From assembly GCA_018725565.1 (NCBI GenBank), contig QLUR01000010.1, positions 1 to 64,000 on the forward strand: 64,000 bases of DNA. The letters run 5' to 3'. Source of the stretch: Bacillota bacterium (lineage in GTDB: Bacteria > Bacillota > Dethiobacteria > Dethiobacterales > Dethiobacteraceae). A program made the position numbers and the translations under genes. The stretch's first letter is position 1. Each line of letters opens with the position of its first letter. Below, in pieces: positions 34,580 through 49,686 of the stretch. The notes beneath the pieces were generated by a model. The model made no database searches. It saw only the letters and a list, made by a program, of their open reading frames with translations, and was not told the DNA's origin.

Positions 34580-35363
34580 TGTTTTCCCTCTCCGGAGGAA
34601 AGATTAAATCGTGATAATCAGCAAGCCATTCTTCTTTCAGCTCTTTCAGTTTGCCTTCGCCGTAGCGTCGTTCTCCCCGTGGAATCTTAACCTGCAGTGA
34701 CTTATTCACCCTGGCCGGCAATCCGCTTAATACATAAATTTCATCACCCAGGTAAAGTGCTTCGTCTAAATCATGAGTAACAAAAATAACCGTCCGCAAG
34801 TCTTGCTGCCATAACGCAGCAAAGGAATCCATCAACGAGATTTTAAGTTGCAGATCGAGCCCCTTAAAGGGCTCATCCATCAGCAACAGGTCTGAAGGAA
34901 ACACGAAGGCACGAGCGATACTGACCCTTTGTTTCATGCCACCACTGAGCTTCTCAGGCCAATAGTCCCTGAAATCGTATAAGTCAACCATTTTAAGGTA
35001 TTTATCAACTATTTCTGCCCGCTGTTTTTTGGGATATATATCTTTGCTGACAAAGTCAATATTCTGCCAGACGGTTTTCCAGGGCAGCAGTCTTGGTTCC
35101 TGAAAAAGATACGAGACCGTTTTACCGGCAAAACCCTTAAATTCCCCGCTGTCAGGCTTGAGTAATCCGCTGATTAAATTTAATAATGTTGTCTTTCCAC
35201 CCCCTGAGGGCCCCATAATACAGGTTATTTTTTTTTCGGGTACAGTGAGACTAAAATTCTCATATACTTTTAGAGACTTAACCCCTTTCCCCACTTTAAA
35301 TTCTTTTGCCAGGTTTGTGATTTGTAATGCCTTCTGCATCGTCCGGTCCATCCTTATTTCCAA
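34572..35363 (-). CDS. ABC transporter ATP-binding protein, NitT/TauT family (region 4 operon)
   Basis: 263 aa if started at TTG 35363 (GAGGA 7 bases upstream); ATG 35351 and ATG 35339 are alternatives. Walker A GPSGGGKTT, LFQEPRLLPWKTV, LSGGMKQR, LLLMDEPFKGLD, VTHDLDEAL. It overlaps the permease stop. Similar in family but clearly different in sequence from the ATPase at 25367-26182. Confidence 0.92.
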   Translation of the reverse strand: MEIRMDRTMQKALQITNLAKEFKVGKGVKSLKVYENFSLTVPEKKITCIMGPSGGGKTTLLNLISGLLKPDSGEFKGFAGKTVSYLFQEPRLLPWKTVWQNIDFVSKDIYPKKQRAEIVDKYLKMVDLYDFRDYWPEKLSGGMKQRVSIARAFVFPSDLLLMDEPFKGLDLQLKISLMDSFAALWQQDLRTVIFVTHDLDEALYLGDEIYVLSGLPARVNKSLQVKIPRGERRYGEGKLKELKEEWLADYHDLIFPPERENNG

Positions 35364-36106
35364 ACTTCCATCCTCTTCCTTAAAGTAGAAACACTGTAAT
35401 CAAACAGGGCAGCTAAGGCGATGGCCACCACCGTCCAGGCAAAAACCCCGGCAGTGTTCAGAAAGACACGTGCTGTCTGCAGGCTCGTCCCCATTGAGAT
35501 AGGAGGCTGGCTTAACACCTCAGTCATGATGACCACGCGCAAATTAAGCCCCAATGCTGTGGAACAGGCTGCCAGCACATACGGCATGATAGAAGGAAGA
35601 TATATTTCCAGCAGCTTCCTCAGCCTGCCGATCCTATACATGGCAGCCATTTCAATCAATTTATGGTCCACATTGTCTACCCCGGCTATGATGTTGGTGT
35701 AAATAATAGGGTATATTACCAGAGACCCGACTAAGACAGGTGCTTTTTCTGTACCAAGCCAGATCAGGGCGAGCAAAATAATCGAGATAGGAGGAGCCGC
35801 CTTTGTGATTACCACCAGCGGGCTGAACAGGTAGTACAGCGGTTTCCACAACCCGGCCAACACAGCAAAAAGTAATGCTGTCAAAAACGTCAGGGTAAAA
35901 CCGATCAGGCTCCTGGTTGTAGTATTAAATACCGCCGTCCAGAAGTTTTCGTAAGTGATGATTCGGACAAGTTCCTGCCAGGTTTCGCCTGGAGGAGGAA
36001 GGATAATACTCGCCCCCACTGCCCGGGAGACGACCTCCCACAGGATCAGCAGGCATAGCACCGCCCCCGCCGTATAAAGCTTATCTTTGGAAGTAAAAAG
36101 CTTCAC
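35354..36106 (-). CDS. ABC transporter permease, NitT/TauT family (region 4 operon)
   Basis: About 250 aa with six hydrophobic segments and the coupling loop around EMAAMYRIGRLRKLLEIYLPS. The start is taken as GTG 36106, with GGAGGG 10 bases before it; the ATG 36124 frame extends further into the preceding gene. In either case the start overlaps the 3' end of the binding-protein gene (stop at 36081), so translation is coupled. Confidence 0.9.
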   Translation of the reverse strand: MKLFTSKDKLYTAGAVLCLLILWEVVSRAVGASIILPPPGETWQELVRIITYENFWTAVFNTTTRSLIGFTLTFLTALLFAVLAGLWKPLYYLFSPLVVITKAAPPISIILLALIWLGTEKAPVLVGSLVIYPIIYTNIIAGVDNVDHKLIEMAAMYRIGRLRKLLEIYLPSIMPYVLAACSTALGLNLRVVIMTEVLSQPPISMGTSLQTARVFLNTAGVFAWTVVAIALAALFDYSVSTLRKRMEVWK

Positions 36107-37424
36107 CGGGCAAGCGCCCTCCAATCGCCTCAGGAGAAAAGTCCCGCAGCACTGTTAAGAAAGCCTCAATTGCTCCGCGCGCCTCTTTTGCGCCCACAAA
36201 CCGGATGTTGCTCCGGGGAACTGCCTTTTCCACGACTCCGGCAGTCATCCCTGTCAACAGCCCTTCCGCCCATACTCCCGCTGTTTGCGGGTTATTATTA
36301 ACCCAAACCGCGCTTTGCGCCACCTCATGCAAGAATCTGTCCACAAATTCCGGGTAACCGTTAATCACGGCGTTGCTGATCAGCAGCGAGGCCTGCGGAT
36401 AGCTGACCCCCAGTCCGGTTGCCCTTGCCCACTCCTGCTGAAAGTCCAGCACCACCGAAAAATCCTGCCTTCTCGTCAGCACCTGGGTCACTGCCGGCTC
36501 TGCCAGCACGGCCGTTTTGACCCGGCCGGCAAGCACCGCCTGAGCCAGTTCCGTTACACTGCCCAAGTACCTTAAAGTAACGTCCCGGTCAGGATTCAGA
36601 CCGTTTTGAGCCAACAGGTATCTCAATACTATATCGGGGGTACGCCCTCTGCCAAAAGTGTAGAGTTCTTTCCCGCGCAAATCTTGCCAGTTGCTGATAT
36701 TCTCGCTGCTTATCAGATATAGCGTCCCCCAGATATTTACTGCGGCAAGCCGGTAAGGGATGTTTCTGTTATAAAAGATAGCCGCCTCGTTGGTGGGAAC
36801 AATGGCGATGTCGGCTTCTCCTGATACTACCTTGGCGGCCAGTAGTTCCGGGGAGCGGACTATTTCATAGCTGACGGTTACATTTCTGCCCATGGGGGGG
36901 CGTTCTCTAAGCAGCCTGACCATGCTTAGGGCTGTAACGCCGTCCGGAATTGCCACCCGCACAGTAAGAGCCGGGACAGAGCTCAACTGAACAGTCCTGG
37001 TCGCCGCTTCCCAGTTGACGCGCCAGCCAAGACCGGTACCCAGAAAGCGCAAAGGAACAAAGAGGCGTCCATCCAGCAGTACCGGTGCCGTATCCAACCG
37101 GATCTGGCGACCGTTGCTGGCGGCCACAGCCTGTCCTGCCGTCAGCCTGATAACGGTATCGCCATCAGTCACGGTTACGCTTCTTTCCCCAGCGTTCCAG
37201 CTGACACGGGCACCAAGCCGCTCGGCAACAACCCGGTAAGGCACCATAACCCGGCGATTGACCAGCTGCGGTGACACACCCCCAAGCTCTGTACCGTCGA
37301 CAACAACCCGGATCGGCCGTGTGTCAGCAGCATGAACAACGGGCGTAGCACCCGTCAGCAAAACAAATACTAACATTAAAAATATACCAAGATTTCCTGG
37401 CCTAACCTTGTCTATGCCTTTCAT
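36081..37424 (-). CDS. NMT1-type binding protein fused to N-terminal copper-amine-oxidase-N-like repeats
   Basis: 447 aa. A signal peptide (to about 32) is followed by a Cu_amine_oxidN1-type region (about 40-150; MVPYRVVAERLGARVSWN and FVPLRFLGTGLGWRVNWE are its two repeats), a fold common in Firmicute surface proteins. An NMT1-like solute-binding domain (about 155-447) follows, with VRVAIPDGVTALSMVRLL, ADIAIVPTNEAAI and DLRGKELYTFGRG. The stalk fusion would replace a lipid anchor in this ABC system. ATG follows GGGAGGT. A paralogue lies at 45726-47048. Confidence 0.88.
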   Translation of the reverse strand: MKGIDKVRPGNLGIFLMLVFVLLTGATPVVHAADTRPIRVVVDGTELGGVSPQLVNRRVMVPYRVVAERLGARVSWNAGERSVTVTDGDTVIRLTAGQAVAASNGRQIRLDTAPVLLDGRLFVPLRFLGTGLGWRVNWEAATRTVQLSSVPALTVRVAIPDGVTALSMVRLLRERPPMGRNVTVSYEIVRSPELLAAKVVSGEADIAIVPTNEAAIFYNRNIPYRLAAVNIWGTLYLISSENISNWQDLRGKELYTFGRGRTPDIVLRYLLAQNGLNPDRDVTLRYLGSVTELAQAVLAGRVKTAVLAEPAVTQVLTRRQDFSVVLDFQQEWARATGLGVSYPQASLLISNAVINGYPEFVDRFLHEVAQSAVWVNNNPQTAGVWAEGLLTGMTAGVVEKAVPRSNIRFVGAKEARGAIEAFLTVLRDFSPEAIGGRLPGEAFYFQR

Positions 37425-37489: not shown

Positions 37490-37688
37490 CAGCAAGTCCC
37501 CGCTGCGACTGGCGGCTTTGTGCCGTTCCTTAAAGTCTGCCCTGCATCTGGTTCAGTGGGGCCGGAACGCTCTCCGCTGCAACCCGGCTGTCAGTCTATG
37601 CTGTCCAACGCCCGGAGATAACGGTCTTTTAGATCGCAAAGAATACGCAGCCGTCAATTGTTAAGAACGTCTTAAACCACACCGTGGC

Positions 37689-38099
37689 CTACCTTGGGGC
37701 ACGTATGCCAAGGTACTCCATTAGGGCTGTTTGCAGCACTTTAGAGAAGTTCACGCCTTGCTCCTCAGCTGACTCTTTTAGCCACGCAGGGATAGTCACG
37801 TTGGTCTTGACAGCCCTATTATCCAGTTCGTTCCGAGCAAGTTCAGGGAAAACAGAAACAGGGGCCACAATGTACCCGTCTGCCGTCTCAGGATCGATCT
37901 GCGGTTTCTTTGAAGGCACGGGGATTTCATCGCCATCTTTCTCCATCCCGTAGATGTGTAAGCCAAGTGCCTCAGCAACATTCAGCTGGGCCTGCTCAAA
38001 ATCTTTACCCATACTCACACACCCCGGAAGATCGGGAAAATACACTCCGTAACCATCCTCTGTAGGCTCAAACACGGCAAGATAAGTAAGTTTACGCAT
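37689..38099 (-). CDS. hicB: HicB-family antitoxin
   Basis: 136 aa. N-terminal HicB fold (YLAVFEPTEDGYGVYFPDLPGCVSMG, here in two parts: VFEPTEDGYGVYF and DLPGCVSMG) and a C-terminal ribbon-helix-helix-like segment (NVTIPAWLKESAEEQGVNFS). Start ATG 38099 follows AAAGGAG. It neutralises the HicA-like RNase encoded just upstream and probably represses the operon. Confidence 0.9.
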   Translation of the reverse strand: MRKLTYLAVFEPTEDGYGVYFPDLPGCVSMGKDFEQAQLNVAEALGLHIYGMEKDGDEIPVPSKKPQIDPETADGYIVAPVSVFPELARNELDNRAVKTNVTIPAWLKESAEEQGVNFSKVLQTALMEYLGIRAPR

Positions 38100-38134
38100 A
38101 ACCGTGACTCCTTTCTTTTGGCTTGGCAGGGTTA

Positions 38135-38323
38135 TCATTTTAGCCCCGCCTGCCTAAGAATACTGTTTAGAGTTCCGGGAGGAATATCGCCTGAGTGGTC
38201 TGAGACTGTGACTTTTCCTTTTTTCGTCGGATGCTTTAGCTGTATGTGAGACCCTCTGTTTCGGGTTTCTATCTCCCGCCATCCGTCCTTATGCAGTAGT
38301 TTTAGTATTTCTCTGACCGTTAT
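38135..38323 (-). CDS. hicA: HicA-family mRNA interferase with ATA in place of a start codon
   Basis: 62 codons translated by hand: TVREILKLLHKDGWREIE, then RNRGSHIQLKHPTKKGK (catalytic His about 26 in GSH), VTVSDHSGDIPPGTLNSIL, ending RQAGLK. Every HicA hallmark is in place and the frame is open. The codon where HicA proteins begin is ATA (38321-38323), preceded by GGGAGGG at normal distance; no in-frame ATG, GTG or TTG is nearby. Either ATA is used inefficiently or the toxin has lost its start. HicB follows after 35 bases. Confidence 0.8.
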   Translation of the reverse strand: MTVREILKLLHKDGWREIETRNRGSHIQLKHPTKKGKVTVSDHSGDIPPGTLNSILRQAGLK

Positions 38324-38396
38324 TGTTGCTCCCTCCCCACATCTTTGGTATACGCATAAATTATACGCATGTTAAGAGGAATCCAGCGTGCTGTAG

Positions 38397-39125
38397 TCAG
38401 CGCTCAGCCACTGCAACCGTGGCCTGAGAATCAGCCGACTGATATTCTCCATAGTTATAATCCCCGTATACCCTGACCTTGGCAAAGCCTGCCTCCAGGA
38501 GCAAGGTTTCCAACTCAGTCCGCCGGATTGGCCGCAGCGTGATCCTGTTTTCAAAACGGTCTGTGCCCTTATCCTTCCGGGTCACTTCCAGGACGGAATC
38601 AAACAGCAGACACTCCTCTCCCCGTGGGCGGTATATACGGGAAAAGCGTAAGCCTTCCCGTTCAATCAGCGGCAACTCCGTGTCTCCTGAAGCGAGGATA
38701 CGGTCAAAATTGACGATTTGCAGCACAGCCCTGCCGGGACTGCGCAGCACTCTGTGCATGGCTGCCAACGCCATTTTTAAATCATTCTTTTCCAGCAAAT
38801 GAGCCAGCGAATTGCCGATGCAAAAAAGGCCGCCGAACACAAGTCCAAGAGCATCGGGTTCACGCATGTCGCCCACCGCGAACTTAGCCGCCCCGGCTGC
38901 TGCTGCCTTTTTTTGAGCTCGTTCCACCAGGGCCGGCTCCAGGTCCGTCCCCCATGCCTCATAACCGAGACGCGCCAGTTCAAGCGCGTATGTGCCCGTA
39001 CCGCAGGCCAGGTCAAGAACCCTACGGGCCCCCACAGCAGAAAATTCTCTGTGCAGGAATGCAGTTTTGCTTTGTTCCAGAGGAAAGATTAAATCATAAT
39101 GGCCGGCCAGGCTGTGATAAAACAT
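38397..39125 (-). CDS. Class I SAM-dependent methyltransferase
   Basis: 242 aa; motif I VLDLACGTGTYALELA, acidic GTDLEPALVERA, and post-motif FCIGNSLAHLLE, characteristic of small-molecule methyltransferases. ATG follows TTGGAGG. The target is not predictable, and neighbours (toxin-antitoxin genes) give no help. Confidence 0.87.
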   Translation of the reverse strand: MFYHSLAGHYDLIFPLEQSKTAFLHREFSAVGARRVLDLACGTGTYALELARLGYEAWGTDLEPALVERAQKKAAAAGAAKFAVGDMREPDALGLVFGGLFCIGNSLAHLLEKNDLKMALAAMHRVLRSPGRAVLQIVNFDRILASGDTELPLIEREGLRFSRIYRPRGEECLLFDSVLEVTRKDKGTDRFENRITLRPIRRTELETLLLEAGFAKVRVYGDYNYGEYQSADSQATVAVAER

Positions 39126-39158
39126 CGGACCTCCAAAATTGCCGTCAGTGGACCTGAC

Positions 39159-39377
39159 TCATTCCATCTCGTCCCACATCTCATCCACCGAAGCGTAAGC
39201 TTTCAATTTTCCTTCTCGGGCTTCTTTGCGCCCTTCCTCGATGGCGGCGCGGATTTCCGGTTTCCAGGCCCATATTTCGTCTTTTGGAATTACCGTAATC
39301 GGTGTAATAATTACCCGGCCTCTTTTGATTTCAATCTCCAGATCATCGCCATTTTTTAACCTCAGGGCCTTGACCAC
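39159..39377 (-). CDS. AbrB/MazE-like antitoxin, N-terminally truncated
   Basis: 72 aa from GTG 39377. The sequence NGDDLEIEIKRGRVIITP matches the second half of an AbrB/MazE swapped-hairpin domain. The first half (usual KWGNSxxVRIP part) is missing: an in-frame TAA lies a few codons upstream. The C-terminal tail with EIRAAIEEGRKEAREGK resembles antitoxin tails. No toxin gene is adjacent. Probably a remnant; expression uncertain. Confidence 0.45.
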   Translation of the reverse strand: MVKALRLKNGDDLEIEIKRGRVIITPITVIPKDEIWAWKPEIRAAIEEGRKEAREGKLKAYASVDEMWDEME

Positions 39378-39542
39378 TGTGCGAAATTCGTACTTTTATT
39401 ATATTGCTCCGAGCGTCAAAAGTAAACGACGGCGCCAGTGCTTTTTCGTTAAATGGACCAGGTGGGGTTAGCTTATCCGGCCGTCTGCCCATTTTCTCCA
39501 GAGTTGTCCAGCGGCTTCCACTACCAGCGGGTCAAATTATGT

Positions 39543-39818
39543 CTATCCTTTTCCGTTCCTTAATGCCTGCTTCAGGTCTGCCACCCCTCGTTTGGTAAAG
39601 ATGATGGGCAGCCGGCGGCGCTTGGCCTGTCCTTTGACACAGTCCATCAGCGCATGGTTGACATAGTCGTGAACAATCAGAATCATATCAACATGCCGCG
39701 GAATGTCCTTTTTCCTTTCCTTGCGTCCCGACCAATGAATAATTTCACTGGCTCCGTAATCTTCGAGTTCCTTGGGCATGTTACCAAGCCTGTCCGCCCC
39801 CACCAATAAAACAGTCAT
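39543..39818 (-). CDS. DUF2325 protein, Fur-box controlled
   Basis: 91 aa; begins TVLLVGADRLGNMPKEL and contains HVDMILIVHDYVNHALMD and RLPIIFTKRGVADLKQAL, the layout of the DUF2325 family (function unknown, common in Firmicutes next to iron genes). Start ATG 39818 follows GGAG. A canonical promoter with a Fur box at its start site lies 26-75 bases upstream, so iron limitation should induce it. Confidence 0.75.
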   Translation of the reverse strand: MTVLLVGADRLGNMPKELEDYGASEIIHWSGRKERKKDIPRHVDMILIVHDYVNHALMDCVKGQAKRRRLPIIFTKRGVADLKQALRNGKG

Positions 39819-39843
39819 GTTGTTCACTCCATTTCAGCGATAT

Positions 39844-39858
39844 TGAAAATCATTCTCA
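39844..39858. promoter_or_regulatory. Fur box upstream of the DUF2325 gene
   Basis: TGAAAATCATTCTCA, two mismatches to the 7-1-7 consensus TGATAATNATTATCA. It lies immediately downstream of the -10 of the promoter at 39865-39893. Confidence 0.7.
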
Positions 39859-39864
39859 CAACAA

Positions 39865-39893
39865 AGTATATAGCTTAGTTCTCCCGCTGTCAA
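39865..39893 (-). promoter_or_regulatory. Sigma-A promoter, Fur-regulated
   Basis: Minus strand TTGACA, 17-base spacer, TATACT, with the Fur box starting 6 bases after the -10. Confidence 0.8.
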
Positions 39894-39944
39894 GTATTTT
39901 TGCCGCCCTAAACGGTCCTGCCGGAAGGTTTTCCTCCAGGGGCT

Positions 39945-40481
39945 TCAGCTGATTCCAACAACCGTAAACAAGTCGCCTGCGGCGGAGGCCATCAAAAAGG
40001 CTGCTATCTCCTCTTTTAGCTTCTGCAGCTGAATCGCTTCTTCCGATGTAATCGTACCGGCATGAACTTTATGCGAAAGCTCGATAAATTCGGAAGGGAT
40101 AAGCCCGTGCTTCAGGGTCAGACTGACCTTCTTCCCGTTATACGCCACTTCAAAATAGTATTTGCCTCCGACTCCGTCAGCGGCATCAGGCGCCTCCTTA
40201 TCAATGGCGATACTCTGGTCGACTGTCAGCCTGCCTTGGGTGTTCGCCCTGGTGACCATTTCAATTCCGTCGATAATTCCCGGGCCGTTAACAGCAAGCC
40301 GGATAATGATTTTATCGCGGGGCACGATTTCCCCGCCTGCCAGACAGGACAGCGCCAGTTCCAGCATTTTATAAGCCATGGCGACTCCGGCCACAAATGA
40401 GCAACCGTGGTATTTTAACATCTCCTGATGGGATACTTGAATAACTGTTCCCTGGTCCCTGACACATATGACATCGGCCAC
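39945..40481 (-). CDS. Uncharacterised protein, possibly FmdE-like
   Basis: 178 aa. Start GTG 40481 was chosen because GGAGGTG lies 5-12 bases before it; the ATG at 40496 overlaps that site. The segment KYHGCSFVAGVAMAYKMLELAL and the later NGPGIIDGIEMVTRANTQGRL vaguely follow the FmdE pattern (H-x-H-CPG...GxR, then GC-x-DAIQ). The CPG cysteine and the second His are not conserved, so any metal site would differ. It follows the H-cluster protein by 38 bases and is probably in the same operon. Function unknown. Confidence 0.55.
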   Translation of the reverse strand: MADVICVRDQGTVIQVSHQEMLKYHGCSFVAGVAMAYKMLELALSCLAGGEIVPRDKIIIRLAVNGPGIIDGIEMVTRANTQGRLTVDQSIAIDKEAPDAADGVGGKYYFEVAYNGKKVSLTLKHGLIPSEFIELSHKVHAGTITSEEAIQLQKLKEEIAAFLMASAAGDLFTVVGIS

Positions 40482-40519
40482 TTTGTTCACCTCCATTGCT
40501 GAATTAACGGGGACGCCGA

Positions 40520-41599
40520 CTAATAATAAGTCACAAAATCCGACAAATTCAGTTCCCGGTTAAATCTGCGGAACATCTCCTGCACTATGCGATGGTTCTC
40601 CGCCGCCTCAGGACCGGCGTGACTGACAACCAGCTTCTGCAAAGAGTCGGGCGCCGGCACCTGTCCGGTACCCGGGCCGCCGTCGCAGGGGTCGGCACAG
40701 TTATATGCTTCGAGCAAGTCGGGCAGCTTACCCTTCTGCCGCACTACTTCCCTGAATTCTGCCAAATACTCATAAACCCTTTCAGGTCCGCTGATTTTCT
40801 CAAAACACCCGGTTGGGAGATGGGGAAGTATACTTTCGCGCAACCCGCCATAGAACCCCAGGGTTCTGCCGTTGCCGACTGCGTCGTCGTCGAAGCCTGC
40901 GGCCGGATAGGTGTCAAGTTCTATTCCCTGTTCACTGAAATATTCCTTTAGACGACCGAGCGTAACGTTGTAGGAAACCAGGGCACTGCCGACGGTACGC
41001 ATCTCTGCCCGCTTCGCAATGCAAGGTGAAAGGAAAGCCAGTTTTTCCTCCGCTCTCCTGTATTTCCTGAGAAAAATTGCCGCGCAATGCAGCGGGCTGA
41101 AAACCGGGATAAGCTGCCGCCGCAACCCCGGCAGGTGGCATTGAATGAATCGGGAGACCGCCGCACAGGGCGAGGCTATAAGCCCGGCGCCGGGATTCCG
41201 CCGCAAGACCTCCACATATGCCCAAATTGTTATATCCGCGTAAAAAAGGACATTGTAAATTGAGTCAACTCCTGACTGCTTCAGGAATCCGAACAGTTTT
41301 GCCGGCGATGCAAACTGGCTGTGAACCGCCGGCGCCACTAAAAGGGAAATAGGTGTTCCCCGTCGCAGGTCTTCAAGAAATAAAGCGGTATCGTCTTGAT
41401 AACTAATCGCCCGGCGGGGGCAGGCGGACAGGCACTCGCCGCAGCCGACACAACCGTTTTGCATGACGCTGTTCAGCGAAGATGTTCCCCTTTTTGCTGC
41501 CGGGCAGATTCTGAGGCACCTCTTGCATTCGGCACAATCGCTGTTGACGGCCATATCACCAGCCGTTAATTGCTCGGCTGAAGGATCATCCGGCATCAT
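40520..41599 (-). CDS. [FeFe]-hydrogenase-like H-cluster protein with two ferredoxin clusters
   Basis: 359 aa. Two [4Fe-4S] motifs at the N terminus (CAECKRCLRICP, CVGCGECLSACP), then an iron-hydrogenase large-subunit domain. H-cluster ligands are discernible: SPCAAV (L1), LSPCIAKRAE (L2) and NCADPCDGG (L3, C-x3-C). The neighbouring L1 cysteine that relays protons in catalytic enzymes is replaced by Pro. That resembles sensory or group C/D relatives rather than a fast hydrogenase. ATG 41599 starts 5 bases after the stop of the giant activase, so the two are coupled. Confidence 0.82.
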   Translation of the reverse strand: MMPDDPSAEQLTAGDMAVNSDCAECKRCLRICPAAKRGTSSLNSVMQNGCVGCGECLSACPRRAISYQDDTALFLEDLRRGTPISLLVAPAVHSQFASPAKLFGFLKQSGVDSIYNVLFYADITIWAYVEVLRRNPGAGLIASPCAAVSRFIQCHLPGLRRQLIPVFSPLHCAAIFLRKYRRAEEKLAFLSPCIAKRAEMRTVGSALVSYNVTLGRLKEYFSEQGIELDTYPAAGFDDDAVGNGRTLGFYGGLRESILPHLPTGCFEKISGPERVYEYLAEFREVVRQKGKLPDLLEAYNCADPCDGGPGTGQVPAPDSLQKLVVSHAGPEAAENHRIVQEMFRRFNRELNLSDFVTYY

Positions 41600-41603
41600 C
41601 TCT

Positions 41604-44600
41604 TTAACCTCTGGAACCAACGCTGTTTAACCTTACTCTGTCAAGATTAATGCCGCCATCATTTTCTTTTTTCAGCGGCAGGTTATGAACAAAAGTCTGC
41701 AAACGCATTTCATCATTCTCGTTCTTCTTCCCGTCTATCCCGATATTCAGCCAGGCGCCATGCTCCTTGAACCGCTCAGAAAAAATGTTCGTCAGCAACG
41801 CTGTATTTTCATACAATGATGCCACGTTAATAATGGCGTGCGCGCCCTCTTCACGGGCCAGCATTGCCTTGCCGATGCGGTACATGCCAAAACCGCCGTA
41901 CAGACAAGGGAGATACTCTTTGCTGAAGCGGGTAATTTTTTCTGCCCGCTGCTGCAGAAGCTTACCGGCGCCGGAGAAAACTTGTTCCGCTTCAGCAGAC
42001 AACCTGCCAAGGACTGACCGGTATCTGAGATAAATGAACAGTTCCTTCTTGGCTTTTGCTTCCGCCTGCTTCTCAGATAAATAATGATAAATGACCTCTG
42101 CTAACGGCGCCAACTTAATTTGCGCGCCAAGCCGTTCTGCGCTTTCTACCAGGTTAGCGTTCAGTTCCGGCCTGTAAAGCAGGTACGGCTCTCCCACCAA
42201 GGCCAGCAGCGGCCTGGTCTTTGGCTGTGTGGCCAAACGCGCAAAATCCGCGCCGGCCGCGGCTACCATTGCCTTAAGGTCCCGGACTCCGGCTAGCTGC
42301 TGCAGATACCCGGCAAACAGGTGATTGGCCATAGCCGGGTCATCGGTATATGGCCTGCTGTCCAGCAGCATTTCAGACAATACGTCTACCGCAAAAATCA
42401 TTCTAAACATTGCTGCGGTCAAGTCTGGTTCAAACAAAGATTTTTCAGTAAACAAGTCTTCCAGGAACGGCGCCACTACCTCTACTTGAGTCAGGCCTTG
42501 TTTATTGAGGAAAGTTTTAAGGAGCCTGGCATACTGGCCGTCGACCTCCGCGCCTTCCAGCGCCGGTATTAAGATCGCAATCCTGTCCAGGCGTTCTTTT
42601 TCTTTGGTTAATGTTGTCACCACGCTGCCAAGCAAAGCTGTCAAGGAGAAACACTCTTTGCCCGTGGTAAATGAACGTACCGCCTCTACGACCTCCTCCT
42701 GCGGAGGTTCCAGCAGCTGCGCCTTGTAACCGAACCGCCCCAGTGTGTTGGAAAGAGCAGTCGCATGCGGTCCCAAGTCGGGGAGAAATAGTTGTTTGCC
42801 GGCGCTGACAGCTGAAGATAGCGCCACTTTGGGCAAGCTGACACACCCGGCCTGCGGGCGTTGACTATTCAGGCTGCTGATAAATGCTTCCAGCCTGGTA
42901 ATGATACCAACCGGGGAGGAGTGCTCATCCACCTCCAGGTGCAAATACGGCTTATCCCCCATAATTTCCGACACATAATGCGTAAGCGCGGTGTCAGGAC
43001 CGCACCCGTGATTTGTAATAAATACCGGATAAAGATTGGGATGCTCTCTGGCAATCTGGACCGCAGCCAGAATATGCTGCCCAAAAGGCCAGTACATATT
43101 AGCGCAAAAGTCAGATACATCATAATCAGCAATGGGCAAGGCATCTTTAGGGATTATTTTAATGCCCATTTTGGCCAGTTCCTGAGGGATGCGCATATTC
43201 AAATGGCGGTCAATAATTCCGTACGGCCGGGTGATTAACACAAGAGCCTTTTCATCGGGAGATAAGTTCCGCAGGAACTCTCTCCCCGCTTTTTCCACGG
43301 CCTGTTCAAAGGCGTCCTTGGCCAGGAAGCCCGCCTTGATGGCTGGTAATAATTGCATCGCGCTTTTGCCCAGCTCGGCGCCCATTTTTAAGAATGTTTT
43401 AAGCAAATGCTGCCTGCCAAATTTAAACGACAGGACAGGGCTGATCAGTTTTACATTCTTTTGCCGCATCTGGCTGCCCAGCAAAACTTCTATGATTTTA
43501 GCCGCGCTTTGCATAAAAATACACGGGTAATCCTGTCTCGTCCTGGAAACCTGGTGTTTCATCGTGGCCAGCGCCGGCAGAAAGATATAATCCACATTTT
43601 TTTCCAGCAAATCCAGCACATGACCGGCAATCAGTTTCACCGGGAAGCACGTTTCCTCATATGTCACGCTTTCACTTAAACCCACGATCCGCTCGTCGGT
43701 GTGCCCGGAAATGACCACATTGTAACCGAGATAATGAAACATGGCCTGAAACATGGGAAACAGTTTATACATATACAATACACGCGGGATACCCACAGTT
43801 GGCGCCTCAGGATTCAACTTCCCGCGGTAATCCTTCATGAACAGGGCCTCCCGCAGGGCAAACAAAGGCGGCAACTGCACCTCTGTATTGCCGGCGGTGC
43901 CTTTGTCAAACATGTTACCGCGCGCGCCGCAGCCGCCTGACCCTGCTTCCCAGCCATGAAACTTGCTGGACAACCCCTGGCCCTGCAACTGCTCCCGGGC
44001 CTGCAGCGCCGCGCCCCAAGCCCCGGTTACGCTGAAAAACGGGGAAACTGTAATCTGCCGGCCGGTAATATTTTGCAGGGCGGCCAATACGGCCCTGTTA
44101 AAGGCCACTCCCCCCTGAAAATTAATTTTTGCGCCGATTTTTTTAAACCCCACAACCCGGTTCAGATAATTTTGGGCCACGGCATAACACAGTCCGGACA
44201 CGATATCCGGCAGAGGCGTGCCCAGCGCCAGGTGATGACGGACATTGGTGTCCATACAGACTGTGCAGCGTTCGCCCAAAGACACCGGCGTACTGGAGCT
44301 GAAAGCCAGCGGCGCGATCTCTTCTGCCGTAATGCCCAGTTTTTTGGCCTGCTCTTCCAGAAAAGAACCGGTACCGGCGGCGCAGACCTTATTCATTTCA
44401 AAACCGGTTACCACTCCGTTCTCCAGACGGATGAATTTAGCGTCCTGGCCGCCGATTTCAAATACCGTATCTGCCTCAGGGTCCGCCTCCACAGCGGCAC
44501 GCGCCTGAGCGAAAATTTCATCTGCCACCACATCCCCGCCCACCAGGCCACCTATTAAATAACGGCCGGAGCCGGTCACCCCCACCCCCAGAACGCGTTC

Positions 44601-45689
44601 TCCGTGGTAACGGGCCTTAAATTCCTGCAACCCCTGCCGCACTGCCGCAATCGGGTCCCCGGCCGTGCGCAGGTACACCAGGTCCACCACCCGCCCCGCC
44701 GGGGTCATCAAAACCAGATTGGTGCTGGTAGAGCCCACATCAATGCCCAGATAGCAGTCGCCCTCATAAGCTGCAGCCTGATGTAACGAGTCGGTGTCAG
44801 CGGCGGGCATAACCAGGGGACGATGATAAGCAGCGGCGCAGGTCTTTTGTTTTTGTTCCAGCGCCTCTTTTAGTTTGCTTAAAGAAAGATAATCTCCGGC
44901 TGCCAAGGCCAGCAGGGCTGTCCCGCTGCTGTTCATATTCCTGCTTTCTCCCGGAATAAAAATGTCCTCCGTGCCCAGCGAAAAAAGCTCCCTGACCGCC
45001 CTGACAATCCCCTTGTTCTCCGTCATTCCTCCATGCAGCAGAAGCGGCGGGACCATTCGAGCGGAGCGAACCACTGATGCTTTAAATGTCCGGATTACCG
45101 CGTAGCAGAGCCCTGACAAAATGTCGCTTACCGCTCTGCCCTCCTGTTGCAGGTGGACAATGTCCGTTTTGGCAAAGACACTGCAGCGTCCCGCTATCCG
45201 CGGCACAGAGGAAGCCCGTTCTGTCAAGCCGGAAAGTTCGCACAAGTCTATGCCAAGGCGCAAGGCCTGCTCCTCAAGAAATGAGCCGGTACCGGCCGAA
45301 CAATCGGTGTTAAAAGAAAAATGTTTAACGGACTTATCCGGGTGCAAGGCAATAAATTTGCTGTTCTGGCAGCCCAGCTCAACGATTGTACCCACCCGGG
45401 GATAACACTCTTTAACAGCCGCGCACTGGGCCTGCACCTCCGGGTAATTTTTCAGACCGGCCTCTGCGGCCAGTTTCAGGCCGCCGACGCCGGTCAGCGC
45501 GCCATACTGCAAGTCCTGCAGCTTGAACCGCAGAGCCAGACCATCGATTTCTTCTGCCAAAACAGCATAGGGCCTGCCCTTATGTTCTCTGCTGATATGG
45601 CAGAGATTTTCTTTAGCAAGCGTCAGTAAGGAAATTTTAACCGCCGACGCTCCAATGTCAATGCCGATCGCAAATAATGACTTTTCCAT
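41604..45689 (-). CDS. Giant acyl-CoA dehydratase activase-like protein (two ASKHA domains + DUF2229 + C-terminal region)
   Basis: 1361 aa. The first ASKHA domain (about 5-275; IGIDIGASAVK, DCSAGTGSFLEE, AGRCSVFAK) and second (about 315-590; LGIDVGSTSTN, IGGQDAKFI, KVCAAGTGSFLEE, GERCTVCMDT) each keep both cluster cysteines. From about 630 comes a DUF2229 domain (VGIPRVLYMYKLFPMF, ETCFPVKLIAGH) and further dehydratase/double-cubane-like sequence (FITNHGCGPDTALTHY). Such single-chain proteins are widespread in anaerobes; their substrate is unknown. They are thought to couple ATP hydrolysis to very low-potential electron transfer. ATG 45689 follows GGAG. Unusual here is the coupling to an H-cluster protein. 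Confidence 0.9.
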   Translation of the reverse strand: MEKSLFAIGIDIGASAVKISLLTLAKENLCHISREHKGRPYAVLAEEIDGLALRFKLQDLQYGALTGVGGLKLAAEAGLKNYPEVQAQCAAVKECYPRVGTIVELGCQNSKFIALHPDKSVKHFSFNTDCSAGTGSFLEEQALRLGIDLCELSGLTERASSVPRIAGRCSVFAKTDIVHLQQEGRAVSDILSGLCYAVIRTFKASVVRSARMVPPLLLHGGMTENKGIVRAVRELFSLGTEDIFIPGESRNMNSSGTALLALAAGDYLSLSKLKEALEQKQKTCAAAYHRPLVMPAADTDSLHQAAAYEGDCYLGIDVGSTSTNLVLMTPAGRVVDLVYLRTAGDPIAAVRQGLQEFKARYHGERVLGVGVTGSGRYLIGGLVGGDVVADEIFAQARAAVEADPEADTVFEIGGQDAKFIRLENGVVTGFEMNKVCAAGTGSFLEEQAKKLGITAEEIAPLAFSSSTPVSLGERCTVCMDTNVRHHLALGTPLPDIVSGLCYAVAQNYLNRVVGFKKIGAKINFQGGVAFNRAVLAALQNITGRQITVSPFFSVTGAWGAALQAREQLQGQGLSSKFHGWEAGSGGCGARGNMFDKGTAGNTEVQLPPLFALREALFMKDYRGKLNPEAPTVGIPRVLYMYKLFPMFQAMFHYLGYNVVISGHTDERIVGLSESVTYEETCFPVKLIAGHVLDLLEKNVDYIFLPALATMKHQVSRTRQDYPCIFMQSAAKIIEVLLGSQMRQKNVKLISPVLSFKFGRQHLLKTFLKMGAELGKSAMQLLPAIKAGFLAKDAFEQAVEKAGREFLRNLSPDEKALVLITRPYGIIDRHLNMRIPQELAKMGIKIIPKDALPIADYDVSDFCANMYWPFGQHILAAVQIAREHPNLYPVFITNHGCGPDTALTHYVSEIMGDKPYLHLEVDEHSSPVGIITRLEAFISSLNSQRPQAGCVSLPKVALSSAVSAGKQLFLPDLGPHATALSNTLGRFGYKAQLLEPPQEEVVEAVRSFTTGKECFSLTALLGSVVTTLTKEKERLDRIAILIPALEGAEVDGQYARLLKTFLNKQGLTQVEVVAPFLEDLFTEKSLFEPDLTAAMFRMIFAVDVLSEMLLDSRPYTDDPAMANHLFAGYLQQLAGVRDLKAMVAAAGADFARLATQPKTRPLLALVGEPYLLYRPELNANLVESAERLGAQIKLAPLAEVIYHYLSEKQAEAKAKKELFIYLRYRSVLGRLSAEAEQVFSGAGKLLQQRAEKITRFSKEYLPCLYGGFGMYRIGKAMLAREEGAHAIINVASLYENTALLTNIFSERFKEHGAWLNIGIDGKKNENDEMRLQTFVHNLPLKKENDGGINLDRVRLNSVGSRG

Positions 45690-45725
45690 TCTCATTCTCC
45701 ATTTACAATATATGCAATGTTAAGC

Positions 45726-47048
45726 CTACCTTTGGAAGTAAAAAGCTTCACCAGGCAAGCGCCCCCCAATCGCTTCAGGAGAAAAGTCCCGCAAGACTCT
45801 TAAATAAGCCTCAATTGCTCCGCGCGCCTCTCTTGCGCCAACAAACCTGATATTGCTTCTGGGAAGCGCCTGTTCCACGACCCTGGCCGTCATGCCCGTC
45901 TGCAATTCTTCCGCCCATACCCCCGCTGTCTGTGGGTTATTGTTAACCCACGCGGCGCTTTGCGCAACCTCATGTAAAAATCTGTCCACAAACTCCGGAT
46001 AACCGTTTAACACGGCGTTGCTAATCAAGAGCGAAGCCTGCGGATAGCTTAAACCCAGTCCGGTTGCTGTTGCCCACGCTTGCTGAAGGTCAAGCACAGC
46101 CGCAACATCCTGCCTCCTCGTCATTACCTGTGTTGCTGCCGGCTCGGGAAGGACAGCGGTCTTAACCCTGCCGGCAATCATCGCCTGGGCCAGCTCCGTT
46201 CCGCTGCCCAGGTACCTTAAAGTGACGTCCCGGTCTGGATGCAGGCCGTTTTGAGCCAACAGGTATCTGAACACTATATCTGGTGTGAGTCCCCGGCCAA
46301 AAGTGTGTACTTCTTTGCCCCGCAAATCTTGCCAGCTCCTGATATTCTCGCTGCTTACCACATGCAACATCCCCCACACATTAGCCGCGACAAGCCTGTA
46401 GGGAACGTTTCTGTTATAAAGGACAGCCGCTAAATTAGTGGGAATGATGGCAATATCAGCTTCACCCGCTACAACTCTGGCCGCCATTAGTTCGGGGGAG
46501 CGGAGCACTTCATAGTTGATAGTCACATTTCTGCCCATCGAAGGCCGCTCTCTAAGCAGTCTGACAATACTTAAGGCAGGAACTCCGTCCGGAACCACCA
46601 CCCGCACAGTAAGAGCAGGAATAGACCTCAACTGAACGGTCCTGGTCGCCGTTTCCCAGTTGACGCGCCAGCCAAGTCCGGCGCCCAAAAAGCGCAAGGG
46701 AACTAAGACACGCCCGTTCACCAGCACTGGCGGCACATCCAGCCGGATATTACGACCATTGCTGATCGCCTCAGCCTGGCCCACAGTCAGTCTCAGGCTC
46801 GTATCACCATCAGTAACAGTCACGCTTCTTTCCGCCGCATTCCAGCTGACACGAGCCCCCAGCCGCTCGGCAACAACCCGGTATGGCACCATAGTCCGGC
46901 CGTTAATCACTTGCGGCGCCACGTCAAAGGTCACCGGCTTCTCGTCTATGCTAACAGTGATGTTCCCGCCGGCGGCCGCGGCCGGTGCAGTTGCCGGCAA
47001 GGCCGCTGCCATGACAAACAAGGCAATACACAACCAATTGCGAAACAT
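45726..47048 (-). CDS. Paralogous stalk-NMT1 binding protein, orphan
   Basis: About 440 aa with the same architecture as the protein at 36081-37424: signal peptide, two Cu_amine_oxidN1-like repeats (MVPYRVVAERLGARVSWN, LVPLRFLGAGLGWRVNWE) and NMT1-like domain (IPDGVPALSIVRLLRE, ADIAIIPTNLAAVLYN). The two genes are so alike in DNA that duplication must be fairly recent. No permease or ATPase follows; the giant activase gene does, after 36 bases. Start ATG 47048 after GAGGAG. Confidence 0.87.
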   Translation of the reverse strand: MFRNWLCIALFVMAAALPATAPAAAAGGNITVSIDEKPVTFDVAPQVINGRTMVPYRVVAERLGARVSWNAAERSVTVTDGDTSLRLTVGQAEAISNGRNIRLDVPPVLVNGRVLVPLRFLGAGLGWRVNWETATRTVQLRSIPALTVRVVVPDGVPALSIVRLLRERPSMGRNVTINYEVLRSPELMAARVVAGEADIAIIPTNLAAVLYNRNVPYRLVAANVWGMLHVVSSENIRSWQDLRGKEVHTFGRGLTPDIVFRYLLAQNGLHPDRDVTLRYLGSGTELAQAMIAGRVKTAVLPEPAATQVMTRRQDVAAVLDLQQAWATATGLGLSYPQASLLISNAVLNGYPEFVDRFLHEVAQSAAWVNNNPQTAGVWAEELQTGMTARVVEQALPRSNIRFVGAREARGAIEAYLRVLRDFSPEAIGGRLPGEAFYFQR

Positions 47049-47161
47049 AAAATCCATCTCCTCTCAAAATTTAAGCTTTTATTATTGGCCTGGACTATCT
47101 TTGGCAAGGTTGAAAAACCAGTTTCACCCTCCATAAAATCAAACTAAAAAGGGATTGACCA

Positions 47162-47176
47162 TGATAATCATTTTCA
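47162..47176. promoter_or_regulatory. Fur box in the divergent gap
   Basis: TGATAATCATTTTCA, a single mismatch to the 7-1-7 consensus. It lies between the orphan binding-protein gene (minus) and the Crp/Fnr gene (plus). AT-rich -10-like TATAAT (minus, 47188-47193) is nearby, but no clean -35 was found, so which side is controlled is unclear. Confidence 0.75.
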
Positions 47177-47276
47177 TTTATAATTGGATTATACAGTTGA
47201 CCTTTATAAAAAAAAAGTATCTCTTGTTACACTTTATCTATTTTCCATGAAAATATTTTAATAAAGGGGCAGGGCT

Positions 47277-47957
47277 ATGAACAGCATGATCCAGCTGCTC
47301 AATAAATGCAGCCTGTTTAACCATTTATCCGTTGAAGAGACAGAAAAGCTCTTAATGGATATTACCTTCAGCTTCAAGTACTATAAAAGAAAAGAGGTGA
47401 TATTTTCACCTCTTCATCCTGCTGACACGTTGGGGATTCTCCTAGCAGGCAGCATAGACGCGCAGAAGATTTTTGCCTCCGGAAAAGTTATCACCATAAG
47501 CAGAAGGTTTCCCTACGACCTAATTGCCGATGTTCCTATGTTTGCCAACACCAGCTGTTACCCTTCTATTATTTCGGCCTGCGAAAACAGTCACATCTGG
47601 CTGGTAAATAAAGCCAACCTCTTAAAAATATTTACCAAGGATCCCCGGGTAATGCTTAAATTTTTAGAGTCTGTATCTAACAGAGCTTTAGCGTTAAATA
47701 GCGTGGTAGAACTTCTATCGTTAAATTCCGTCCCCGCTAAAATAGCCTATTTTCTAACAATGGAACAGAAAAAACAAAGAAGCAGCACCATCTCGTTAAA
47801 GTTTCCGAAAAAGTCTTTGGCTGAACAGATAAATGTATCAAGACCTGCGCTATCAAGGGAGCTTAAGAAGATGCAAAGCGAGGGAATCATTTCTTGCCAT
47901 AAAAGGACCATTAGAATCCATAGCACAGAAAAATTGGCCGACCTCTGCTCCCATTAA
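47277..47957 (+). CDS. Crp/Fnr-family transcription regulator
   Basis: 226 aa. An N-terminal cyclic-nucleotide-binding-like barrel (about 15-125) has Cys only at scattered positions, with no FNR-type cluster of four. A C-terminal helix-turn-helix KKSLAEQINVSRPALSRELKKM follows. Divergent from the Fur-box operon and likely its regulator, or one responding to the same stress. The effector cannot be read; the heme-ligand pattern of CooA is not apparent. Confidence 0.88.
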   Translation: MNSMIQLLNKCSLFNHLSVEETEKLLMDITFSFKYYKRKEVIFSPLHPADTLGILLAGSIDAQKIFASGKVITISRRFPYDLIADVPMFANTSCYPSIISACENSHIWLVNKANLLKIFTKDPRVMLKFLESVSNRALALNSVVELLSLNSVPAKIAYFLTMEQKKQRSSTISLKFPKKSLAEQINVSRPALSRELKKMQSEGIISCHKRTIRIHSTEKLADLCSH

Positions 47958-48001
47958 GCTGACTGACCGGGATAATACAGCGCTTAGCAGATTTGGGCTT
48001 A

Positions 48002-48030
48002 TTGTTTGCTGTTCAACCAAATGGTATAAT
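48002..48030 (+). promoter_or_regulatory. Promoter of mntA-hepT
   Basis: TTGTTT, 17-base spacer, extended TGG-TATAAT. The AAATGGTATAATT block recurs at 52401 and 52745. Confidence 0.7.
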
Positions 48031-48080
48031 TTAACCAGGCTCATATGTTTCTTTGAATCTGCAGAGCAGTGAGGGAAAGC

Positions 48081-48449
48081 ATGATGGATGACGCTAAAAT
48101 TTTGAAAATGAAGGCAACATGGGAAAAACGGGAAATCAGAAAACAAGAGCAAGAAAAAACCAGGCGCGAATATGCATGGAAATGTGCCCGGAAGGCAGCA
48201 GCCCTGCTCAAGGAAAAATACGGCATCAAGAATCTCTGGCTCTTCGGCTCTTTGGTTTCGGGAAAGCATTTTACAATCCACTCGGATATAGACTTGTACG
48301 TGGAGAGTTTCCCTGTAAAAGTTGATTTTTGGGAAGCCCTAAGCCAGACTGAATATGCAGCCGCACCATTCCCAATAAATTTGATTACAGAAGCGGACGC
48401 GCCGCCAGGGTTAAAAGATAAAATCCGCGAAGAGGGGGTACCGTTGTGA
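48081..48449 (+). CDS. MntA-like nucleotidyltransferase antitoxin
   Basis: 122 aa. The N-terminal charged helix (about 1-45) is followed by a minimal nucleotidyltransferase domain with WLFGSLVSGKHF and SDIDLYVE, i.e. the GS-x-x-x-G and D-x-D metal motifs. In MntA-HepT systems the antitoxin AMPylates the HEPN toxin. Start ATG 48081 after GAGGG. It overlaps the next gene by 4 bases (GTGA). Confidence 0.83.
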   Translation: MMDDAKILKMKATWEKREIRKQEQEKTRREYAWKCARKAAALLKEKYGIKNLWLFGSLVSGKHFTIHSDIDLYVESFPVKVDFWEALSQTEYAAAPFPINLITEADAPPGLKDKIREEGVPL

Positions 48450-48952
48450 CCTACAAAGAATTGAAGTTGATTGAAGCTCGTATTAAAGCAGAATTGGCCA
48501 ACATGAGCTCTCTACTTTCCGAACTTGAAAAGCACGGTTTTATGGTAACGGACGGCAATGGCAGCAAAATCCAGTTCGATGAGGATAACAGCTTTATGCT
48601 AAGGGCCATAGGTTCTGTGCTTCACGATTTTTATGTGGCAGTGGAAAATATCTTAGAAATCATTGGCCGCGAGATTGATGAATATCTTCCGGAGGGACTA
48701 GACTGGCATATTCAGCTTTTGCGGCAGATGGCGTTAGAAGTAGAGGGCATAAGAACGGCTGTTATATCCGGAAATACATTGTTCCTTCTCGATAAATATC
48801 GCTCGTTCAGACATGTTTTCCGCAATGTGTATGGATTTAGTCTGGACGCAGCAAAATTAAGAACCTTGCTGGATGACCTGGCAAATACATCTAGGCAATT
48901 CAGTAAAGAGATTGAAACATTTTTAAGTGATATGAGAAGCTTGATGGAGTAA
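48446..48952 (+). CDS. HepT-like HEPN toxin
   Basis: 168 aa all-helical protein starting GTG 48446 within the antitoxin stop. Contains FMLRAIGSVLHDFYVAVE and DKYRSFRHVFRNVYGF, the conserved region around the HEPN RNase site (R and H residues) of HepT-like families. Predicted RNase neutralised by the adjacent nucleotidyltransferase. A shredded copy of the pair lies at 52466-52711. Confidence 0.78.
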   Translation: MTYKELKLIEARIKAELANMSSLLSELEKHGFMVTDGNGSKIQFDEDNSFMLRAIGSVLHDFYVAVENILEIIGREIDEYLPEGLDWHIQLLRQMALEVEGIRTAVISGNTLFLLDKYRSFRHVFRNVYGFSLDAAKLRTLLDDLANTSRQFSKEIETFLSDMRSLME

Positions 48953-48971
48953 AAACACAGACTGCGAATTA

Positions 48972-48986
48972 AAGGGACACCATACT
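48972..48986. repeat. Copy 2 of dispersed GGGACACCATACT motif
   Basis: AAGGGACACCATACT preceded by AATTA, just after the hepT-like gene and before the first copy of the 49-bp repeat. Confidence 0.6.
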
Positions 48987-49008
48987 AATAATTATGCAGC
49001 GTTTGATT

Positions 49009-49057
49009 CCCGTTATCCGCCTGCCAAACCGCCATAACCGGCCATGATCGCGCTGAT
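49009..49057 (+). repeat. 49-bp direct repeat, left copy
   Basis: Begins CCCGTTATCCGCCTGCC and ends ATGATCGCGCTGAT; identical over 49 bases to 49687-49735. The two copies bracket the yefM-relE module and its promoter exactly. Confidence 0.92.
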
Positions 49058-49068
49058 GCATTTTTTTC

Positions 49069-49097
49069 TTGTGGTATGTACAATATAATGCTATAGT
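49069..49097 (+). promoter_or_regulatory. Promoter of yefM-relE
   Basis: TTGTGG, 17-base spacer, TATAGT. GTAT/ATAC-rich inverted sequence around the -10 (GTATGTAC, GTATAC) may be the antitoxin operator. Confidence 0.65.
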
Positions 49098-49124
49098 TAT
49101 GTATACGAAAGGAGGTGCCCCTTT

Positions 49125-49388
49125 ATGCCTCAGATCAGACCGATTACGGATTTAAGAAATACCAGCGAAATCTCCGAATTATGCCACGCCAAAAAAGAAC
49201 CGATTTTCATTACGAAAAACGGTTATGGCGATCTGGTAATTATGAGTATTGAAACCTATGAAGCCATGCTGGAAGAGCGGGAACTTGACGCAGCTATTGC
49301 GGAAGCCGAAGCCGGGTATGCTTCTGACAACCGTCTGTTGGATGCAAAGGAAAGCCTTTCCACATTAAGAAGGAACCACTTTGGATAA
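49125..49388 (+). CDS. YefM/Phd-family antitoxin
   Basis: 87 aa: ITDLRNTSEISELCH and EPIFITKNGYGDLVIMS are typical of the Phd/YefM DNA-binding half; the acidic C-terminal tail binds the toxin. ATG preceded by AAAGGAGGTG. Overlaps the toxin gene by 8 bases. Confidence 0.9.
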   Translation: MPQIRPITDLRNTSEISELCHAKKEPIFITKNGYGDLVIMSIETYEAMLEERELDAAIAEAEAGYASDNRLLDAKESLSTLRRNHFG

Positions 49389-49683
49389 ATACGCTGTTAA
49401 ATTGCTAACCCGCGCTTATCAAGATTTAGACAGCATTTATGCTTACATTGCCGAGATTCTGCTTGAAACCGGGACGGCGAAAAAACTACTGGAAGAGATG
49501 GAAGACGCAATCTTCAGTTTAGAGGAATTGCCCCAGCGTGGCTCCCTAAGAAAAAATGGCGCATATGCCAATAAAGGTTATCGTCAGCTTTTCATCAAGA
49601 ATTTTACTGTGATATACCGTGTGGACGAGGGGAAAAAGCAGGTTGTAATCGTTGCAGTAAGATATTCCAAAAGCCAATTCTGA
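49381..49683 (+). CDS. RelE/ParE-family toxin
   Basis: 100 aa from TTG 49381. LTRAYQDLDSIYAYI, LEELPQRGSL and YRQLFIKNFTVIYRVDEG follow the RelE/ParE pattern, with the terminal basic residues before the C terminus (VAVRYSKSQF). Ribosome-dependent RNase or gyrase poison; the two cannot be separated by eye. Its stop is 3 bases before the right copy of the direct repeat. Confidence 0.9.
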   Translation: MDKYAVKLLTRAYQDLDSIYAYIAEILLETGTAKKLLEEMEDAIFSLEELPQRGSLRKNGAYANKGYRQLFIKNFTVIYRVDEGKKQVVIVAVRYSKSQF

Positions 49684-49686
49684 TAG

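Follow-up and report, generated by a model that had tools for sequence, protein, structure and literature searches.

The window analysed here, a 64,000-nucleotide stretch of contig QLUR01000010.1 (positions 1 to 64,000; assembly GCA_018725565.1) from a member of the Dethiobacteraceae (Bacillota), carries a minus-strand operon that encodes, in this order, a binding protein (SBP1), a giant protein with two ASKHA domains, a protein with an [FeFe]-hydrogenase-type H-cluster domain (HYD) and an FmdE-like protein, with domains assigned by Pfam and NCBIfam. We propose that this operon represents an iron-starvation module in which an NMT1-type importer is combined with an ATP-driven reductase and in which HYD and the FmdE-like protein form an accessory cassette, a reading to which we give an even chance. 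The four genes and the upstream Fur box described in an initial annotation are all present, although the giant measures 1363 amino acids instead of the 1361 given there, probably due to another start codon. From SBP1 onwards, successive genes lie 30, -17 and 23 bases apart; an internal start would turn the second value into about +7. The main features are:

47277..47957, plus strand, divergent: Crp/Fnr-family regulator, 226 amino acids (Pfam cNMP_binding and HTH_Crp_2)
47157..47175: Fur box of the main operon, with core TGATAATCATTTTCA at 47162-47176
45726..47057, minus strand: SBP1, 443 amino acids (signal peptide, Cu_amine_oxidN1 stalk domain, NMT1/SsuA-like binding domain)
41604..45695, minus strand: giant, 1363 amino acids (ASKHA 1 with C132 and C171, ASKHA 2 with C438 and C477, DUF2229 with C683, C725 and C898, and a further C-terminal domain devoid of conserved cysteines)
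40520..41620, minus strand: HYD, 366 amino acids (two [4Fe-4S] motifs and an H-cluster domain, output domain absent)
39945..40496, minus strand: FmdE-like protein, 183 amino acids (PF02663, a marginal match of 23.5 bits, cut-off 22.9)

Probable iron control of the operon

The Fur box ahead of SBP1 has three mismatches to the 19-mer, and the window contains two sites of this quality versus 0.01 expected. The 15 bases at its core, TGATAATCATTTTCA, agree with the consensus of Fur sites in C. difficile, TGATAATVAWHWTCA (PMC6311696). When TGATAATNATTNTCA is searched at one mismatch or fewer, six places are found in the 2.67-Mb genome to which the window belongs; only two of them match without mismatch, namely the box of the operon and one upstream of feoA-feoB, while a second box in the window, upstream of a DUF2325 gene, differs at one position. 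Among ten loci with this type of giant, eight (the window, L075, L087, L088, L089, L090, L093 and L140) carry, in the intergenic region at the head of the operon, a box that departs from TGATAATNATTATCA at no more than two positions; Markov-1 resampling of each region yields a box this good in 0 to 2.1% of draws. The loci with a box range over several families up to a Paraclostridium plasmid, but the ten loci do not amount to ten independent cases since L088 is akin to L089, and L075 and L087 to the window. In L076 a Fur box precedes HYD. In addition, Fur-family genes flank the module in two genomes (G401 and G359), the latter with a FecCD-type transporter nearby. Because the box is common to feoAB and kept across lineages, control of the operon by iron via Fur is well supported at the sequence level, in line with the iron-responsive reading of the initial annotation, and the operon is very probably turned on under iron scarcity. 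In locus L090 (2900-4654), a perfect Fur box, TGATAATCATTATCA, also lies upstream of SufC-like and SufD-like genes.

The giant protein and its two halves

BcrAD_BadFG domains are detected over two stretches of the giant, and TIGR00241 scores 245 bits against a cut-off of 125.4. Four cysteines, two per ASKHA domain (C132, C171, C438 and C477), are invariant both in the clade of Fur-linked giants and in ordinary giants of the family. HgdC-type activases hold one [4Fe-4S] cluster jointly by two subunits; the two cysteine pairs thus suggest that a single giant chain could hold the cluster of an activase dimer. ASKHA 2 matches HgdC, MbdQ and the DCCP-R chain of 7yyl.

In the second half of the giant only C683, C725 and C898 are invariant. 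In 2-hydroxyacyl-CoA dehydratases, three cysteines hold a cluster with a free iron site, and the three residues of the giant would suit a cluster of that kind. Having only three invariant cysteines per chain in this half argues against an [Fe8S9] double-cubane cluster. An hhalign comparison of the C-terminal half with HGD-D proteins gives 90% probability over 71 columns, and one member of the giant family (in G359) exceeds the PF06050 cut-off; the window giant has no PF06050 match among those listed. The AlphaFold model of this half, for which the input came from the window and two other loci only, is weak for that reason, with a mean predicted local distance difference test score of 52.5. A Foldseek search with this weak model places chains of 3-methylbenzoyl-CoA reductase (MbdON) and DCCP at ranks 1-4 and 8 of 350,542, with E-values of about 4e-4 to 3e-3 and a template modelling score to the query of about 0.25. 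A profile of the C-terminal half searched against sequences of the PDB gives no credible match. Each line of evidence is modest, yet all agree that this half may resemble the subunits of benzoyl-CoA reductase and DCCP. Consequently, the name 'activase' used in the initial annotation holds for the ASKHA domains but seems too narrow: the giant looks like a complete machine, in which an activase and its own electron-acceptor half are combined in one chain.

Ordinary giants carry an extra CX6CX3CX17C motif as well as cysteines in the last domain, both of which are absent from the Fur-linked clade, and the two types separate on the tree, a split to be read with a warning for long branches. Because this ferredoxin-like motif is absent, an outside electron donor is plausible for the Fur-linked giants. 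An ordinary giant with the extra cysteine motifs is encoded beside a ClpB-like gene elsewhere in the same genome (contig C18; L131, 4169-8449), and ordinary giants are also present in Listeria and Fusobacterium records.

The conserved unit and its transporter

The Fur-linked type of giant occurs in 9 of 398 genomes sampled from the phylum, and the class of the window contributes two more (G013 and G473). Comparison of these loci brings in genes beyond the four-gene operon. Features of the window on the far side of the FmdE-like gene are:

39839..39857: second Fur box, upstream of the DUF2325 gene and also so placed in L075 and L087
39543..39827, minus strand: DUF2325 protein, 94 amino acids (PF10087, 57 bits), with an equivalent position in L075 and L087
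38397..39125, minus strand: SAM-dependent methyltransferase-like protein, with a 77-78% identical counterpart at the equivalent position in L075 and L087
36081..37424, minus strand: SBP2, a paralogue of SBP1 (Pfam)
35354..36124, minus strand: permease of an ATP-binding cassette (ABC) transporter, with an orthologue between binding protein and ATPase upstream of the giant in L075 and L087
34572..35363, minus strand: ABC ATPase, with an orthologue directly upstream of the giant in L075 and L087

The second Fur box, the Crp/Fnr gene, the ABC genes at 34572-36124 with SBP2 and the methyltransferase were not part of the initial annotation. In G013 the order is Crp gene, Fur box, binding protein, permease, ATPase, giant, HYD and FmdE-like gene, followed by a Fur box, the DUF2325 gene and the methyltransferase; G003 has the same arrangement without HYD and the FmdE-like gene. 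Because both genomes keep the importer genes contiguous with the giant, the layout of the window, where SBP1 adjoins the giant but the ABC genes lie apart from it, is a rearranged form. In L075, L087, L088, L089, L090, L091, L092, L093 and L140 a Crp/Fnr gene adjoins the giant operon or lies in its vicinity, and ABC genes stand beside the giant in most loci (the permease and the DUF2325 gene of L087 were both detected by tblastn). On a Paraclostridium bifermentans plasmid the Crp gene, giant, binding protein, permease, ATPase and two cupins are consecutive. Judging from gene order, the conserved unit comprises the Crp/Fnr gene, the genes of an NMT1-type ABC importer and the giant. The methyltransferases 3' of the giant in L090 and L093 were considered as counterparts of the window's gene and rejected, as BLAST shows a short common motif only. 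On the plasmid (NZ_CP094935.1; L140, 12445-27017) the set of Crp, giant, ABC and cupin genes adjoins two hcp genes, hemerythrin proteins, a ferredoxin and NifU, a region that is possibly a stress or nitrosative island. A gene set resembling AmmeMemoRadiSam lies near the giant in G143 and G208 (L088, 16178-19450).

The suggestion that the binding protein may supply the substrate gains support from the complete ABC importer contiguous with the giant in relatives. NMT1-type importers as a rule carry small organic anions or vitamins. SBP1, SBP2 and the permease resemble SsuA, SsuC and SaoP, and membership of the Sao or Ssu families was rejected on score (permease 78.7 versus 295 for SaoP; SBP1 50.5 versus 163.5 for the SsuA family). 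The resemblance, together with a C. difficile ssu operon that is induced at low iron (PMC6311696), would favour scavenging of sulfur or carbon from a sulfonate-like substrate, where the iron control reflects co-regulation of sulfur and iron for Fe-S clusters. We consider this unlikely, given that every Ssu/Sao score falls far under the curated cut-offs and that a known desulfonating enzyme is absent from the operon. Rather improbable, too, is direct iron scavenging, in which the importer would bring in a metal complex or an iron chelate, whose reduction by the giant would free the iron. The Fur control in common with feoAB and the Fur and FecCD neighbours in G401 and G359 fit such a role, but it would depart from the usual cargo of NMT1-type importers, and the reduction of ferric iron has no need of ATP-driven low-potential electrons.

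The H-cluster protein HYD

HYD contains the large-subunit C-terminal domain of [FeFe]-hydrogenases (Fe_hyd_lg_C, PF02906; 76 bits, cut-off 22.1). The ligands of the H-cluster, C152, C200, C308 and C312, are all kept and invariant, as are all eight ferredoxin cysteines kept (C29/32/35/39 and C57/60/63/67), and HydF, a marker for maturation, is above cut-off in all four genomes with HYD. A motif alignment replaces C299, M353 and M497 of CpI by P151, S198 and Y306 in HYD, so that the hallmarks of group A catalysis, the proton-relay cysteine C299 and the framing methionines M353 and M497, are absent by this alignment. In TamHydS the corresponding positions are Ala, Ser and Leu (PMC8163306, PMC11803613). 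Because the proton-relay cysteine is lost, turnover by HYD would probably be slow.

In a quick tree built without named group references, the four stand-alone HYDs group together as a single clade, which is nested in a clade of 35 rows (SH-aLRT 100) whose other members are all of sensor type. Relatives that were examined carry methyl-accepting chemotaxis protein (MCP), GGDEF, histidine kinase, PAS/sigma-54 activator or CheX outputs. The C-terminal CX2CX4CX16C motif, present in nearly all relatives, is absent in the stand-alone proteins (the copy in G473 is incomplete), and a Pfam search of HYD finds neither an output nor a PAS domain. HYD thus appears, from tree and motifs, to be sensor-derived and to have shed the C-terminal cluster and the output domain. 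The sensory ancestry implied by the earlier idea of an H-cluster sensor is borne out by the tree and by the outputs of the relatives; with those two elements lost, a stand-alone sensor role would need a further partner protein.

It is possible, though doubtful, that HYD still acts as a sensor of H2, CO or redox state and, instead of feeding electrons, passes its signal on through contact with another protein, be it the giant, the Crp/Fnr regulator, the FmdE-like protein or the DUF2325 protein. The outputs of its near relatives point in this direction, and its pocket replacements recall TamHydS, a putatively sensory group D protein. The loss of output domain and C-terminal cluster is at odds with this role, and so is the position of the gene 3' of an enzyme gene instead of a signalling gene.

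H-cluster-like genes occur in other settings as well. In L160 (510-3238) the gene of an NMT1-type binding protein is followed by those of an HD-GYP response regulator and of a sensor-type H-cluster protein with 39% identity to HYD, so that importer and H-cluster genes are neighbours there too. H-cluster-like proteins of 406-413 amino acids in L197 (1177-2418), L198, L199, L205 and L206 have a conserved DRTGG/ATPase/PHP-like neighbourhood.

Linkage of HYD to the giant

Our search for HYD covered 60 relatives, the 398-genome sample of the phylum and the class of G315, rather than every genome of the window's class. HYD stands beside the giant in all four genomes in which it was found (G000, G013, G473 and G315), so the conserved linkage that had been set beforehand as a test is indeed seen. 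Among contigs of named GTDB species, true orthologues are confined to Dethiobacter sp. CROMO_SB6 and Firmicutes bacterium UBA994; viral contigs yield no orthologue, and plasmids no match closer than 34%. The FmdE-like gene lies 3' of HYD in the window, G013 and G315, with 73-77% identity; the G473 contig ends inside HYD. That contig (L130, G473:C63) has 4,980 bases and comes from a 69% complete assembly of another family; its giant and HYD are 82% identical to those of the window, and this occurrence may be a recent transfer or an assembly contamination.

HYD is present at four of the twelve giant loci and absent from the other eight, and one giant that is 81% identical to that of the window stands without HYD and the FmdE-like gene. 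HydF is not above cut-off in two of the genomes that have a giant but no HYD (G002 and G394); these probably cannot make an H-cluster, and their giants, for that reason, probably work without one. A reading in which the activase cannot do without HYD is not supported by this distribution, and by gene content the role of HYD cannot be central. Between G315 and the window the giants share 40% identity, versus 66% for HYD and 74% for the FmdE-like proteins, and at least three changes are required to place the presence of HYD on the giant tree. The cassette has thus joined, or been retained by, two distinct giant lineages.

The absences, with a clean one in G003, could indicate that HYD and the FmdE-like protein are mere passengers, placed there by chance or operon hitch-hiking and functionally untied to the giant. 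We regard this as very unlikely: HYD is giant-linked wherever it is found, in three cases its gene runs into that of the giant or all but touches it, and it accompanies two very different giant lineages.

Proposed mechanism

Gene order, domains, cysteines, Fur boxes, linkage and the ancestry of HYD can be read from the sequences themselves. In the module as we infer it, iron response, import, catalysis and electron flow would be connected as follows. Iron-loaded Fur would repress the module and iron scarcity would relieve this repression, with the Crp/Fnr protein probably adding its own signal to induction. The NMT1-type ABC importer would take up a small organic molecule. The two ASKHA domains of the giant would hold one [4Fe-4S] cluster between them and hydrolyse ATP, pushing single electrons to a [4Fe-4S] cluster of its own C-terminal half, which would then reduce or dehydrate the imported molecule. 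With its H-cluster and two ferredoxin-like clusters, HYD would most likely serve the giant as an electron source or as a gate, and the FmdE-like protein would be the companion of HYD. Because the acceptor half is fused into the giant, HYD need not be the client of the activase. Given an outside donor, and with HYD missing from most loci, these loci would have to use another ferredoxin.

Several points weigh against this iron-starvation module. No Fur box is seen in the operon-head regions of L091 and L092; the C-terminal half of the giant is poorly modelled and its structural matches score low; HYD is confined to the minority of giant loci and probably turns over slowly; and the module itself would be iron-rich, an odd product when iron is short.

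Serpentinizing environments, among them the Coast Range Ophiolite, are rich in H2, and only the name of the relative CROMO_SB6 hints at such a setting here. Serpentinizing H2 would suit an H2-fed HYD, which is speculation. A more specific form of the mechanism, in which the former H2 sensor has become the electron inlet of a single-chain, H2-fuelled and ATP-driven reductase that opens an imported molecule in order to obtain or save iron, strikes us as a long shot. If true, anaerobes would respond to iron with a kind of chemistry for which there is no earlier description.

Comparison with known systems

The individual parts of the module are of known kinds. In the open-licence literature searched, we did not find a Fur box, an NMT1 importer, a single-chain activase-reductase and a sensor-derived H-cluster protein together. 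The reductions performed by ATP-driven pairs of activase and reductase are among those with the lowest potentials in biology. If such a pair were united in one chain, controlled by Fur and linked to an importer, a case of which we found no report in the literature searched, this low-potential chemistry would be tied to iron homeostasis, and the module could point to a way in which anaerobes respond to iron starvation that has so far gone unrecognised. HYD would be an example of a sensory H-cluster protein taken over by an enzyme operon, which bears on the role of sensory-type H-cluster proteins. Thanks to the conserved Fur box and the transporter, these two ideas can be put directly to the test.

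The DCCP/DCCP-R system of Carboxydothermus (6eno, 7yyl, 7yzm) consists, as we propose for the giant, of an ATP-driven activase with one [4Fe-4S] cluster and an acceptor of the benzoyl-CoA reductase/2-hydroxyacyl-CoA dehydratase type. DCCP and DCCP-R are separate chains, however, whereas the giant is a single chain that contains both ASKHA domains, has no more than three invariant cysteines in its putative acceptor half, and is linked to an importer and a Fur box. Benzoyl-CoA reductases and 2-hydroxyacyl-CoA dehydratases with their HgdC-type activators (MbdONPQ, 9gai; 1hux; 4eht) have the activase family and the fold matches of the C-terminal half in common with the giant; the latter differs in being fused and probably iron-controlled, and no acyl-CoA enzymes are seen adjoining it in relatives. 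The ordinary 'acyl-CoA dehydratase activase' giants of contig C18, Listeria and Fusobacterium have the pair of ASKHA domains, DUF2229 and all seven invariant cysteines in common with the giant of the window.

HYD shares with the putatively sensory group C and D [FeFe]-hydrogenases (TmHydS and TamHydS) a Fer4 and an H-cluster domain as well as the replacement of the relay cysteine and framing methionines, yet it lacks the C-terminal CX2CX4CX16C cluster and the output domain and is set in an enzyme operon. The nearest published echo of the module is the C. difficile operon ssuA2-ssuB2-ssuC2-CD630_29920, which is strongly induced by iron limitation, is induced also by loss of fur, and has no Fur site upstream according to the same paper (PMC6311696). 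Here, an SsuA-type importer is encoded beside the 'iron hydrogenase-like' CD630_29920, which we liken to HYD by its published description only; a giant is not listed in this operon.

Other observations in the window

A search of positions 34000-50000 of the window for known RNA families gave no match. A conventional HgdC-type activase gene (12764-13561) and two HGD-D proteins lie at 12764-15937 among acyl-CoA dehydrogenase and thiolase genes; this set is of an ordinary 2-hydroxyacyl-CoA dehydratase or benzoyl-CoA-reductase-like kind. Another NMT1/SsuA-like ABC importer set (binding protein, permease and ATPase), named by reading and unrelated to the Fur boxes, is found at 25367-27995. Next to it, the region 28083-30056 has, by reading only, the appearance of a CooS-like anaerobic CO dehydrogenase.

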